Positions 38,162 through 43,575 of a stretch of 64,000 bases of DNA are shown in pieces. Source of the stretch: Streptomyces sp. NBC_00663 (GTDB lineage: Bacteria > Actinomycetota > Actinomycetes > Streptomycetales > Streptomycetaceae). Below the pieces are notes generated by a model that ran no database searches, was not told where the DNA came from, and saw nothing but the letters and a program-made list of their open reading frames with translations. Numbering within the stretch: position 1 is the first letter of the stretch; each line of letters begins with the position of its first letter. Location: the NCBI RefSeq assembly GCF_036226885.1, contig NZ_CP109027.1, positions 744,001 through 808,000 of the forward strand. The letters run 5' to 3'. A program made the position numbers and the translations under genes.

Positions 38162-38868
38162 GCGGGCCGGCGCTGCGCGCCGTCATCGCCGACGACCAGG
38201 CCCTCGTACGCACCGGCTTCGGCATGATCCTCGCCGCCGACGGCATCGAGGTGACCGCCGAGGCCGCCGACGGCGCCGAGGCGGTCACCGCGGTCCGGCG
38301 CACCCGCCCCGACGTGGTGCTGATGGACATCCGGATGCCCGGCATGGACGGCATCGAGGCCACCCGGCGCATCCTCGCCGACGACACGGCCGAGGGCACC
38401 CGCGTCATCATCCTCACCACGTACGACCTCGACCACTATGTGTACGCGGCGCTCGCCGCGGGCGCCTCCGGTTTCCTGCTCAAGGACGTCACCCCCGAGC
38501 ACCTGGTCGCCTCCGTCCGTCTGGTGCAGTCCGGCGACGCCCTGCTCGCACCGGCGATCACCCGCCGGCTGATCGAGCGGTTCGCCCAGCGCGAGGAGCC
38601 CCGGCCCGCCCCTCCCCTGCACCGCGATCTCTCCGGTCTGACCCCGCGCGAGCTGGAGGTGCTGCGCCTGCTGGCGACCGGCCTGAGCAACGCGGAGCTC
38701 GCGGAGCGCCTCTTCCTCAGCCCCACCACGGTGAAGACGCACATCGGCCGCATCCTGTCGAAGCTGGAACTGCGCGACCGCGTCCAGGCGGTCGTCCTCG
38801 CCTACGAGTCGGGGCTGATCACCCCGGGAAATCCAGAAGACGTCCCGGACGTCGATCGTTACCGTTGA
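38158..38868 (+). CDS. Two-component response regulator, NarL/FixJ type
   Basis: This 236-residue regulator has a receiver domain with the phospho-accepting Asp in VVLMDIRMPGMDG (about residue 55), the Thr in ILTTYD and Lys in LLKDVTPE, and a LuxR HTH (LTPRELEVLRLLATGLSN, TTVKTHIGRILSKLEL). GTG 38158 overlaps the kinase stop (GTGA); an in-frame GTG at 38146 is an alternative. The likely target is the divergent ABC exporter, an inference from layout. Confidence 0.92.
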   Translation: MSGPALRAVIADDQALVRTGFGMILAADGIEVTAEAADGAEAVTAVRRTRPDVVLMDIRMPGMDGIEATRRILADDTAEGTRVIILTTYDLDHYVYAALAAGASGFLLKDVTPEHLVASVRLVQSGDALLAPAITRRLIERFAQREEPRPAPPLHRDLSGLTPRELEVLRLLATGLSNAELAERLFLSPTTVKTHIGRILSKLELRDRVQAVVLAYESGLITPGNPEDVPDVDRYR

Positions 38869-38871
38869 CCC

Positions 38872-38940
38872 ATGGAGGTCACCCAGCACACCCACACCGC
38901 AGCCGCGCGAGCGACCAGCTCCCCGGCTGCCACCGTCTGA
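38872..38940 (+). CDS. Ala-rich leader peptide of the AlaRS-like gene
   Basis: This 22-codon ORF starts at ATG 38872, 6 nt after a -10-like TACCGT (38860-38865), with no ribosome site, so it may be translated leaderless. Six codons are Ala (GCA GCC GCG at 38899-38907, GCG at 38911, GCT GCC at 38926-38931) and five are Thr. It ends at TGA 38940, 15 nt before a strong hairpin. Position, size and cognate codon content match a transcription-attenuation leader for the alanyl-tRNA-synthetase-like gene downstream. Thr control cannot be excluded by codons alone. Confidence 0.55.
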   Translation: MEVTQHTHTAAARATSSPAATV

Positions 38941-38979
38941 CCTCACCTCTCCCCCCGGCGGCCGGAAACGGACCGCCGG
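38899..38979 (+). promoter_or_regulatory. Candidate transcription attenuator before the AlaRS-like gene
   Basis: Segment 1 GCAGCCG (38899-38905) pairs with segment 2 CGGCTGC (38924-38930). Segment 3 CCGGCGG (38955-38961) pairs with segment 4 CCGCCGG (38973-38979), extended by CCG/CGG around a GAAA tetraloop. Segment 2 (38923-38931) can instead pair with segment 3 (38957-38965) over 9 positions with one G-U. Segment 1 consists of Ala codons and segment 2 lies just before the leader stop, the layout of a classical attenuator. Confidence 0.5.
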
Positions 38980-39049: not shown

Positions 39050-40228
39050 ATGAACACGGACCGGACCCTGCGCACCTTCACCGACTTCTACGTCGAGCGC
39101 GGCCACCACCTGATCACCGGCAGCACCCTGCTCCCGCCCCCCTCGGACCCGGTGCTGTTCACCACGTCCGGCATGCACCCCCTCACCCCGTACCTGGAAG
39201 GCCGCCCGCACCCGCGGGGCCGCCGCCTGGTCAACGTCCAGCGCTGTCTGCGCACCACCGACCTCGACGAGGTCGGGGACTCCACGCATCTCACGGTCTT
39301 CGAGATGCTCGGCTCGTGGTCGCTGGGCGACTACGGCCATTCACAGAGCCTGCGCTGGGGGTACGAGCTGCTGCGCGACGGCTTCGGCATCCCCGAGGGG
39401 CGGTTGTACGTCACCGTCTTCGGCGGCGACGACCAGGTCGGCCCGGACACCGAATCGCTGCGCACCTGGGAGGAGTCGGGGGTGCCCGTGGAGTCGACCG
39501 TGGAGGACAACTGGTGGTCCAACGGGCCCGTCGGCCCGTGCGGTCCCGACTCGGAGATCTTCGTCTGGACGGGCGGCGACGGCACCCCGCCGGAGGGCAC
39601 CCCGACCACCGATCCGCGCTGGGTCGAGGTCTGGAACCACGTCAGCATGCGCTACCGCCGCCACGAGGACGGCAGCCTCTCCCCGCTGTCCCAGCCGAAC
39701 ATCGACACGGGCATGGGTCTGGAGCGTCTGCTGACCGTGCTCCAGGGCCGTGACTCGGTCTACGAGACGGATCTGTTCGAACCCTGGACGCGACTGCTCC
39801 CGCGTCTGTGGGACCTGGACGAGCTGTCGTTCCGCCTGGTCAGCGATCATCTGCGCTCCGGCGTCGTCGTCATCGGGGAGGGCGTACGCCCCTCCAACAC
39901 CGGACGCGGCTATGTCCTGCGCCGTCTGATCCGACGCCTCCTGACCACCCTCTGGCAGCAGGACCCCACGCGCACCCTGTCCGACCTGCCGCGGGAACTC
40001 GTCGACCACACCCTGGACCACTTCCGGCCGTCCGACGGCACCGACCCGGTCCTCGGCGTCCTCCTGGAAGAGGAGGACCGCTTCGGCAAGCTCCTCGACC
40101 GGGGCCACCGTGTCCTCTCCCACCCGCGGTACCAGGGGCCGCTGACCGAGGAGGACTACCACTACCTCCACGACACCCACGGACTGCCCCGCGATCTCGT
40201 CCTCGGAATGCGGAGCCTGCGCCGATGA
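39050..40228 (+). CDS. AlaRS-like synthetase lacking editing and C-Ala domains
   Basis: This 392-residue protein corresponds to the catalytic and tRNA-recognition domains of class IIc alanyl-tRNA synthetase: FVERGH-type start (TDFYVERGHHLITGSTLLPP), FTTSGMHPLTPYL, FEMLGSWSLGDYG, EVWNHVSMRYRR and NIDTGMGLERL. It ends right after the segment equivalent to YDTYGFPxDLTxEM (HDTHGLPRDLVLGM), so editing and C-Ala domains are absent. The usual RAGGKHNDLENVG block is shortened to RTTDLDEVG. GAAGGA precedes ATG 39050. It could charge tRNA, serve as a resistance copy, or activate Ala for another purpose. Confidence 0.8.
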   Translation: MNTDRTLRTFTDFYVERGHHLITGSTLLPPPSDPVLFTTSGMHPLTPYLEGRPHPRGRRLVNVQRCLRTTDLDEVGDSTHLTVFEMLGSWSLGDYGHSQSLRWGYELLRDGFGIPEGRLYVTVFGGDDQVGPDTESLRTWEESGVPVESTVEDNWWSNGPVGPCGPDSEIFVWTGGDGTPPEGTPTTDPRWVEVWNHVSMRYRRHEDGSLSPLSQPNIDTGMGLERLLTVLQGRDSVYETDLFEPWTRLLPRLWDLDELSFRLVSDHLRSGVVVIGEGVRPSNTGRGYVLRRLIRRLLTTLWQQDPTRTLSDLPRELVDHTLDHFRPSDGTDPVLGVLLEEEDRFGKLLDRGHRVLSHPRYQGPLTEEDYHYLHDTHGLPRDLVLGMRSLRR

Positions 40229-41536: not shown

Positions 41537-43060
41537 TCAGCGCCACTCCCGGAGCCGGGCGAACAGCGGTTCCGCCTCCGGGAGCGTGCCGTCCACGGGG
41601 GTGATGTGCCGGACGATCCGTGCCGCCGCTCCCGGCACGAAGGGCCGCAGTTCGTCGCCCAGGACCCGGCATGCCCCGACCAGCGCGGCGAGGACCGCGT
41701 CGAGGCGTTCGGCCGCGTCGGTGTTGCCCTGCCGTTCCGCCCGGGCCAGTTCCCAGGGCCGGGTGGTGTCGATGCAGCGGTTGGCCTCTTCCACGATGTC
41801 CCAGGCGGCGTCGACGGCCCGCCGGAAGTCGAAGTCGGCCAGCGCGGTGTCGATCCGCCCGGGTGCCGCCCGGCACACGTCGAGCAGCGGCGTCACCGCG
41901 AACCGGTCGGCGCCGAGCTCCGGTACGGCCCCGCCGCGATAACGGTGGACCATGGTCACGATCCGGTGGACCAGGTTGCCCAGTCCCCCGGCGAAGTCTG
42001 CGTCGGCACGGGCGATCAGCCGCTCGACGGTGAAGTCGGCGTCCCCGACCCGGGGTACGTCGCGCAGCAGCCACCACCGCACGGCGTCCGTGCCGTACGC
42101 GGTGGTCAGGGCGACCGGGTCGACGGCGGTCCCGTTCCCGGACTTGCTGATCTTTTGCCCGGCGACGGTGAGGTAGTCGTGGACGAGGATGTCGGTCGGC
42201 AGCGGCAGGCCCGCCGACAGCAGCATGGCCGGCCAGTACACGGCGTGGAACCGTACGACGCCCTTGCCGGCCAGGTGGACGCGGCGGTCCCCGGCGGCCC
42301 ACCACCGCTCGTACGCGGGGTCGTCGGTGCCGTAGCCGAGGCTGGTGACGTAGTTGCCGAGGGCGTCCCACCAGACGTAGACGACCTGCTGGGGATCGTC
42401 GGGGACGGGGATGCCCCAGCCGTGGGCGCGGGTGTGGGAGCGGGAGACGGAGAAGTCGTGCAGCCCGCTGTCGATGAGCGCGAGGACCTCGTTGCGGCGG
42501 GCGGCGGGCTCGATGCGCAGCGCGCCGCTGGTGATCAGTTCGCGGAGCCGGTCGGCGTGGCGGGAGAGTCTGAAGAACCAGTTCTCCTCGGCGATGGGCT
42601 GCGGCTCGGTGCCGTGTTCGACGCACCTGCCGTCGACCAGTTCGTCCGGCGTCCAGAACTGCTCGCAGCCCACGCAGTACAGCCCCTCGTACTCCTTGCG
42701 GTACAGGTCGCCGGCCTCCGCGCAGCGGCGCCACAGCCGTTCCACCCCCGCACGGTGCCGGGGGTCGCTGCTGGTGCGGATGAAGTCGTCGAAGGAGAGC
42801 GCCAGCGGGTCGCGCAGGGCGGCGAACGCGTCGGCGTTGCGGTCGACGAACTCCCACACGGGGACGCCCTCGGCCTCCGCGGCCAGCACGTTCTTGAGCG
42901 AGTTGTCGTCGGTGCCGCTCAGCAGACGGACGTCGTCGCCCCGCCCGCGGCGGTGCCGGGCAAGGGTGTCGGCCTGCACCAGCTCCAGGGCGAAGCCCAG
43001 GTGCGGGCGGGCGTTGACGTACGGAATGGTCGTGGTGATGTAGTGGCGTGATGCGGTCAT
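41537..43060 (-). CDS. metG: Methionyl-tRNA synthetase, second type
   Basis: This 507-residue class I synthetase has the HIGH-like PHLGF (about residue 20), the TDDNSLKN block, a zinc knuckle starting CVGCEQFW, and KISKS (about 300). It stops without the C-terminal dimerisation domain. The N-terminal SGTDDNSLKNVLAAEAEGVPV region differs from the main Streptomyces MetRS (which has ATDEHGTPAELAA), so this is probably an extra paralogue. GGGAGG precedes ATG 43060. A 17-codon leader with tandem Met codons and an attenuator-like hairpin lie upstream. Confidence 0.85.
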   Translation of the reverse strand: MTASRHYITTTIPYVNARPHLGFALELVQADTLARHRRGRGDDVRLLSGTDDNSLKNVLAAEAEGVPVWEFVDRNADAFAALRDPLALSFDDFIRTSSDPRHRAGVERLWRRCAEAGDLYRKEYEGLYCVGCEQFWTPDELVDGRCVEHGTEPQPIAEENWFFRLSRHADRLRELITSGALRIEPAARRNEVLALIDSGLHDFSVSRSHTRAHGWGIPVPDDPQQVVYVWWDALGNYVTSLGYGTDDPAYERWWAAGDRRVHLAGKGVVRFHAVYWPAMLLSAGLPLPTDILVHDYLTVAGQKISKSGNGTAVDPVALTTAYGTDAVRWWLLRDVPRVGDADFTVERLIARADADFAGGLGNLVHRIVTMVHRYRGGAVPELGADRFAVTPLLDVCRAAPGRIDTALADFDFRRAVDAAWDIVEEANRCIDTTRPWELARAERQGNTDAAERLDAVLAALVGACRVLGDELRPFVPGAAARIVRHITPVDGTLPEAEPLFARLREWR

Positions 43061-43102
43061 CGGTCCTCCCGCCGGTACCGGGACCTGGTCCGCACACGCG
43101 TC

Positions 43103-43166
43103 GAGGCCCCGTCCCGGGGCCTCGGATTCGGTACGCGTCCGTGCTCAGCAGCCCCAGTGCGGGGGC
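43103..43166 (-). promoter_or_regulatory. Candidate transcription attenuator before metG
   Basis: On the minus strand, segment 1 GCCCC (43166-43162), directly after two Met codons, pairs with segment 2 GGGGC (43155-43151). Segment 3 GAGGCCCCG (43123-43115) pairs perfectly with segment 4 CGGGGCCTC (43111-43103), a 9-bp stem with a 3-nt loop. Segment 2 can instead pair with GCCCC in segment 3 (43120-43116). Segment 2 lies 3 nt before the leader stop. This is the standard four-segment attenuator order. Confidence 0.55.
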
Positions 43167-43198
43167 ATCATCCGGTGCTGAGTCGAAGGCGTGATCAT
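43145..43198 (-). CDS. Leader peptide with tandem Met codons upstream of metG
   Basis: ATG 43198 encodes the 17-residue MITPSTQHRMMPPHWGC and stops at 43145. Two adjacent ATG codons (43171-43166) precede the first stem of the attenuator. No ribosome site is present, but TAGCCT lies 7 nt upstream of the ATG as a possible -10, so leaderless translation is likely. Cognate tandem codons before a methionyl-tRNA synthetase gene strongly suggest attenuation control. Confidence 0.6.
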   Translation of the reverse strand: MITPSTQHRMMPPHWGC

Positions 43199-43287
43199 GG
43201 GGTCGAGGCTAGCAAGGGGGCCCGGCCGCGGACATCTCCTTTTCGGCGTCCGCCGCAGCCGATGCCGTTGCTCTAGGGTCGGGCACC

Positions 43288-43575
43288 ATGACGGTGCAAC
43301 TGTGCGTACTCCTCTGGGCCCGGCCGGGCGCCTCGGCCGCGCTCACCGCGTACGAGGACAAGGTGCTGGCGCTGCTCGGTGACCATGGCGGGCGGCTGGT
43401 GCAGCGGGCGCGGGCGGACGGGGCCGAGGGCAGGCCGGACGAGGTGCAGCTGATCGAGTTCGCGGCGCGGGCCGGGTACGAGGGGTTCCTGGACGACCCG
43501 CGCCGGACGGTGCTTGCGGACGAGCGTGACGCGGCTGTGGCCCGCACCGATCTCTATCCGGTCGAGCTCGTCTGA
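43288..43575 (+). CDS. Small conserved protein, DUF1330-like fold
   Basis: This 95-residue cytosolic protein (LCVLLWARPGASAALTAYED, VQLIEFAARAGYEGFLDDPR in the second half) looks like a small ferredoxin-like alpha/beta-barrel protein of the DUF1330 kind. No catalytic residue can be named. TAGGGT at 43272 may be a -10; there is no strong ribosome site. It is convergent with the glycoside hydrolase gene, 10 bp apart. Confidence 0.65.
   Translation: MTVQLCVLLWARPGASAALTAYEDKVLALLGDHGGRLVQRARADGAEGRPDEVQLIEFAARAGYEGFLDDPRRTVLADERDAAVARTDLYPVELV

Follow-up and report, generated by a model that had tools for sequence, protein, structure and literature searches.

Upstream of metG2, an additional methionyl-tRNA synthetase (MetRS) gene of Streptomyces sp. 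NBC_00663, lies what is very probably a leader-peptide attenuator that senses charged elongator tRNA-Met and controls this gene. Attenuation of synthetase genes is already known (trpS, leuS, pheST), and the metG2 leader would be a Met-codon case of it. The leader is conserved in relatives, its hairpins 1:2 and 3:4 covary, the potential of segment 2 to pair with segment 3 is conserved, the Met codons are placed so that a ribosome stalled there would mask one arm of the first hairpin and free the other, and the element is linked to metG. Conservation, covariation, Met-codon geometry and metG linkage support the ribosome-mediated attenuation that had been proposed in an initial annotation of the window, which is the whole stretch of 64,000 nucleotides analyzed here.

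All components are encoded on the minus strand (Table 1). The 17-codon open reading frame (ORF) with tandem ATG codons before metG is exactly as first described, base for base, and so is the 1:2 stem that begins right after the Met codons. Segment 2 can indeed pair with segment 3 (GGGGC 43155-43151 with GCCCC 43120-43116), and the 9-bp stem reported downstream (GAGGCCCCG 43123-43115 with CGGGGCCTC 43111-43103, loop GGA) is adjoined by a tenth pair, C43124-G43102. The distance between the -10 box and the leader ATG is that of leaderless mRNAs, so the leader is probably leaderless; in the relatives, too, the box stands 6-7 nt before the start codon. The 3:4 hairpin itself is strong, and the U-tract behind it is poor. 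The fold of the leader alone gives a z-score of -3.07 against dinucleotide shuffles, of which 1 in 200 is as good. Conservation, and not the fold score, is taken here as the real evidence against chance pairing.

Table 1. Components of the metG2 leader region in the window.
Feature	Position	Strand	Remark
-10 box TAGCCT, TANNNT-type	43206..43211	-	7 nt before the leader ATG
Leader ORF of 17 codons and a stop, peptide MITPSTQHRMMPPHWGC	43145..43198	-	related leaders in relatives
Leader start, ATG	43198-43196	-	
Leader stop, TGA	43147-43145	-	
Tandem Met codons ATG ATG, proposed sensor	43166..43171	-	tandem in 64 of the 73 leaders examined
Segment 1, GCCCC	43162..43166	-	pairs with segment 2
Segment 2, GGGGC	43151..43155	-	able to pair with segment 1 or with segment 3
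Segment 3, CGAGGCCCCG, 5' arm of the 3:4 hairpin	43115..43124	-	
Segment 4, CGGGGCCTCG, 3' arm of the 3:4 hairpin	43102..43111	-	
Possible hairpin over the metG Shine-Dalgarno, GGTCC 43085-43081 with GGACC 43066-43062	43062..43085	-	5:6 covariation
metG2, methionyl-tRNA synthetase, 507 aa, start ATG 43060	41537..43060	-	

From this arrangement we infer a transcription start at or next to the leader ATG, where a 70S ribosome would begin the leader at once. With ample Met-tRNA, the ribosome would pass the two Met codons, stop at UGA and cover segment 2; the 3:4 hairpin would then form and RNA polymerase would stop before metG. With scarce Met-tRNA, the ribosome would halt with a Met codon in the A site and cover segment 1, leaving segment 2 free to pair with segment 3 before segment 4 is made, and transcription of metG would be induced. 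Should no ribosome occupy the leader, 1:2 and 3:4 would both form and metG would stay off. A point against such an attenuator is that a drop in Met-tRNA also lowers the initiator tRNA required to start the leader. Since leader initiation itself needs charged tRNA-Met, elongator tRNA-Met would have to become limiting first for the device to work. The poor U-tract of the window and the lack of 2:3 covariation in the main group of leaders also count against it.

The initial annotation proposed searching relatives for conserved Met codons and covarying stems, and both are found, in favor of the attenuator reading. The relatives are the best 80 of a contig scan, and all counts refer to this set. 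An automatic rule (a TANNNT box 4-9 nt before an ATG or GTG, then 8-40 codons with one or more inner Met) detects a leader with inner Met codons before metG in 60 of these 80 best relatives; it is also satisfied by the window, L086 and L087, and the addition of L088 and L089 after reorientation brings the set to 65 leaders. Of these, 41 have a box-to-start spacing of 6 nt and 24 one of 7 nt (4-9 nt being allowed for 63 leaders, with ties favoring 7, and the pattern of L088 and L089 being fixed at 6), and the start codon is ATG in 55 and GTG in 10. The main group comprises 57 leaders, usually with the core ATGATGCCCCGCnnnCGGGGC, then GAGGCCCC...GGGGCCTC. The residues behind Met vary across leaders (PR, RP, AP, TP, SP, AR), which favors Met codons and RNA over one fixed peptide. 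Twenty of the 80 best relatives lack a leader by the automatic rule; four of them have Met-rich leaders by eye (L043, L071, L073, L080) and one (L061) has a T-box. Neither a Met leader nor a T-box is seen in the remaining 15, which include Kutzneria and Asanoa, L077 and L083 being judged on about 200 nt upstream. Two more Streptomyces genes of 52-53% identity (L090 and L091) show no leader by eye.

Covariation was assessed in two ways. A 57-row alignment, which leaves out the eight group-B leaders, was reduced to 42 rows by dropping eight divergent leaders (L021, L022, L029, L037, L040, L042, L057, L065) and seven near-copies, and the omission of the divergent rows favors the 42-row pair counts. 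In these 42 leaders 93.9% of the 1:2 and 3:4 cells are paired vs. 88.4% after shuffling, and 29 cells show a double change vs. 10.1; on four of five measures none of the 500 shuffles reaches the real value, whereas 96 of 500 do so for further pair types, the fifth measure. Pairing falls to 37-65% when the partners are slid by 1-3 columns. A double change occurs in seven of the 15 pairs, and four never vary and are thus uninformative. Because related sequences may beat shuffles without any structure, and because 15 rows were left out, a test in which arms are swapped between leaders matters too. It uses 21 nonredundant leaders, 36 of the 57 having been removed as redundant and six of the eight divergent rows being kept. 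For 3:4 none of 2000 permutations equals the leaders' own pairing; for 1:2, 76 of 2000 do. The figures are 6 of 2000 for 5:6 in the Shine-Dalgarno region and 27 of 2000 for 4:5; 2:5, 4:6 and 2:6 pair worse than swapped arms (1969, 1991, and 1966 of 2000).

The alternative pair 2:3 is neutral in the swap test (477 of 2000), and within the main group it is 90.5% paired with no double change. Between four leader designs, however, it is rebuilt with other letters, and with one row for each design the own pairing is the best of 24 orders; with nine rows, which are related and were chosen by hand, none of 5000 permutations equals it. On sequence comparison, 1:2 and 3:4 on the one hand and 2:3 on the other would be mutually exclusive pairings. 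RNAalifold recovered only part of 3:4, because the full alignment on which it was run is not structural.

The placement of the Met codons fits as well. A script picked the best hairpin of each leader blind to Met and placed a ribosome with assumed borders (P site -14/+15 nt). In this computed geometry each of the 73 leaders has at least one inner Met codon that, when held in the A site of a stalled ribosome, would lead to a masked 5' arm and a free 3' arm, against a mean rate of 0.22 per codon; segment 1 would thus be masked and segment 2 free. The leaders are homologous within groups, so the 73 are not independent trials, and the hairpin picked was the 2:3 pair in L045 and L059 and an outer hairpin in L050 and L052, which leaves 69 leaders with a hairpin of the intended kind. 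A ribosome at the leader stop would cover segment 2, as the initial annotation held for the window; the 3' arm is masked there and in 61 of the 73 leaders, and the 12 misses are all eight group-B leaders together with L022, L050, L052, and L157.

The element is also specific to its gene. At E 1e-4 the covariance model R1 has one match each in 18 genomes of Streptomyces (392 searched) and in 14 genomes of the class (394 searched); two genomes are common to both lists, which gives 30 loci. In 26 of these, the window included, metG2 lies downstream. The four exceptions are L130 (8.6e-14), L131 (5.4e-6), and L132 and L144 (about 2e-5). L131 is a Trp leader with three Trp codons, and L132 and L144 are probably chance hairpins. 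The only strong exception, L130, is a decayed leader in the Streptomyces genome G181, in which the -10 box (now TGCGCT) and the Met codons are lost; this genome is 100% complete and without metG2, its best match to this MetRS (28% identical) being the E. coli-like gene. The region is GC-rich and four of 15 pairs are invariant, as chance pairing in GC-rich DNA would allow, but the conserved order, the covariation above shuffled, slid and swapped controls, and the gene-specific model matches make this explanation practically negligible.

A rival that shares the stalled ribosome is translational attenuation, in which the stall would alter access to the metG Shine-Dalgarno and 3:4 would be a relay hairpin and not a terminator. 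The covariation of 5:6 and 4:5 and the lack of a good U-tract in the window speak for it. Folding with a masked ribosome points the same way in the window, where Shine-Dalgarno access is 0.81 when stalled vs. 0.37 at the stop, and in the means of 64 leaders (0.394 vs. 0.332; L019 is out, its Shine-Dalgarno motif not being detected), but stalled exceeds stop in just 40 of the 64. Freeing segment 4, moreover, barely shifts mean access (0.271 to 0.258 in 21 nonredundant leaders, 0.272 to 0.286 in 57), and shuffled segment 4 does as well as the real one (0.264 and 0.291, respectively), even though a rise is seen in 15 of the 21 and 39 of the 57 leaders. A six-segment relay to the Shine-Dalgarno, suggested by 5:6 and 4:5, is thus unsupported by folding on average, and 2:5 pairs worse than swapped arms. 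The T fraction in the 9 nt past the 3:4 stem is 0.14-0.62 by position in 21 leaders, with a background of 0.16, and this enrichment, together with U-tracts in four of six Rhizobiaceae leaders, points to termination. Control by translation is accordingly considered unlikely.

Even less probable is an arrest caused by the leader peptide's own sequence or by a drug, in place of a lack of Met-tRNA. Pro-Arg often follows Met-Met, which speaks for such an arrest, but the residues after Met shift with the register in which the C-run is read while the Met beside the hairpin stays constant, and the downstream gene is the cognate synthetase. Transcription attenuation through Met-tRNA is the preferred reading. 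As the window's own U-tract is poor, termination in the window is proposed on the strength of its relatives. Masking segment 1 does not prevent 3:4 in most of 13 folds, which means that the switch would need to operate while the RNA is being made; when leaders were folded at equilibrium with a ribosome mask, the states did not separate cleanly.

The metG2 product matches NCBIfam TIGR00398 above the cut-off, PRK12267 below the cut-off, and Pfam tRNA-synt_1g, and its closest solved chains are 2x1l and 4dlp. The gene called a "second-type" MetRS gene therefore does encode a MetRS. The "second-type" label calls for caution, given the resemblance to PRK12267 and 2x1l/4dlp, a kind that we take to be type 1, and the E. 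coli-like character of the other full MetRS. Definitions of MetRS1 and MetRS2 are found in sections of PMC9071491. At 4.66 Mb the same genome encodes the E. coli-like MetRS in an open frame of 624 residues, and about 10 kb from it lies a MetRS-like paralogue with an open frame of 623 residues (L003, L005, G000 near 4.67 Mb). Judged by open-frame lengths, in genomes that may be incomplete, all 14 main-group genomes examined have another gene of MetRS size, two leader-less genomes (L038, L068) have a second MetRS gene too, and the regulated gene is the only MetRS-sized match in four of four group-B genomes (L045, L046, L049, L058). On these counts the enzyme under the attenuator would be a spare one in Streptomyces and the only one in Frankia-like genomes. 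Other Streptomyces MetRS genes (L092-L114) show no Met leader by eye in 170 nt upstream, the MetRS start being seen in 22 of these 23 loci and another frame in L094. A MetRS tree of 100 rows, built by a quick method, needs two changes for the main group and one for group B (support 76), so leader type tracks gene lineage.

Outside the main group the letters change and the logic is kept. Leaders of Frankia, Crossiella, Actinorugispora, and a Pseudonocardiales MAG have a different hairpin, with the Met codons inside or next to it, and form 2:3 from GGCC-type segments; four Frankia-like genomes have such a same-logic leader before the one MetRS gene found in them. The leader stop of Nonomuraea usually falls inside hairpin 1:2. 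Of 26 plasmid records matching at 1e-80, eight were examined (two actinobacterial and six from Rhizobiaceae). The two actinobacterial records (L154, L155) are large linear plasmids, one from Streptomyces sp. NBC_01558 and one from Embleya sp. NBC_00896, and carry metG2 with a main-group leader. The six Rhizobiaceae plasmids (L156-L161) encode a 47-50% identical MetRS behind a Met-Met-Met leader, a hairpin and a second hairpin; four of them (L158-L161), unlike L156 and L157, show a clear U-tract thereafter. By eye, Met-rich leaders with U-tract terminators are also seen ahead of the gene in MAGs of Alphaproteobacteria (two) and Anaerolineae (one). At E 1e-120 this MetRS is found in 1 of 115 sampled alphaproteobacterial genomes, the query genome itself; in Anaerolineae it is found in 5 of 60 genomes, the query genome included. 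In the Anaerolineae locus L150 the gene stands directly behind another reading frame and no Met leader is seen by eye.

The T-box binds tRNA directly and has no leader ORF, in which it differs from the metG2 leader. Both are tRNA-charging sensors before synthetase genes, and a T-box (RF00230) precedes the same MetRS type in a Thermomicrobiales MAG (L061 2700-2957, E 2.4e-17), with a score of 77.4 bits, below the gathering score of 93. The T-box model has no match in the window, nor has Rfam at gathering score, and a permissive Rfam search of 42950-43300 returns one chance match (E 0.89).

Among the known systems closest to metG2 is the auxiliary, antibiotic-resistant TrpRS gene of Streptomyces coelicolor, for which a ribosome-mediated transcription attenuator was reportedly described by Vecchione and Sello in 2010. 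Both cases would involve an auxiliary synthetase gene in Streptomyces and an attenuator of this kind, but the amino acid there is Trp and the enzyme is resistant to an antibiotic, whereas for metG2 the amino acid is Met and no inhibitor is known. Duplicated synthetases, TrpRS1 and indolmycin are documented in parts of PMC9437257 and PMC4787780, and mycobacterial ilvB1 attenuation in part of PMC13236596. Streptomyces trpS and leuS attenuators, classical attenuators before synthetase genes like the one proposed for metG2, were predicted in PMC1262725, which in the sections concerned finds no conserved upstream RNA structure for methionine operons in the genomes studied. In S. lividans TK24, portions of PMC8079986 list leader peptides, mostly described as leaderless, before leuS, trpS, thrS, and alaS, and others before leuA, trpE, ilvBHC, and metNIQ; metG is absent from that list. 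These leaders share with metG2 the leaderless start (a probable one in metG2), the cognate codons, the hairpins and, often, the lack of a typical U-tract, but metL precedes the metNIQ transporter and has a different peptide (same portions of PMC8079986). Neither 'metG' nor 'metS' occurs in the main-text portions of PMC2965389 and PMC4833913. The initial annotation knew of no Met-codon example in Streptomyces; none before metG is found in the open-licence PMC literature searched either, supplements and the survey of Lopatovskaya et al. (2010) lying outside that scope.

The window contains a second synthetase-related locus. An AlaRS catalytic domain alone (392 aa) is encoded at 39050-40228 (+), and before it, at 38860-38979 (+), lies a probable leaderless leader rich in Ala codons (MEVTQHTHTAAARATSSPAATV) in a region with a CCGGCGG/CCGCCGG hairpin. 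The leader peptide is similar to the AlaL that part of PMC8079986 gives for S. lividans, and a similar Ala leader is present in 13 of 13 anchorable loci, the window's own included; 11 of 24 loci are not anchorable.

It is conceivable, although rather doubtful, that metG2 and its leader are a mobile module, a spare MetRS joined to a Met-charging sensor, which has spread between phyla on chromosomes and plasmids owing to natural MetRS inhibitors in soil, with elongator tRNA-Met running short before the initiator. Met is alone among the amino acids in that a single synthetase serves both sensing, by elongation at AUG, and the initiation that enables sensing. With a conserved Met-codon attenuator on metG it would become testable whether elongator Met-tRNA runs short before initiator, and a search for natural MetRS inhibitors is suggested by finding a spare MetRS together with a charging sensor.
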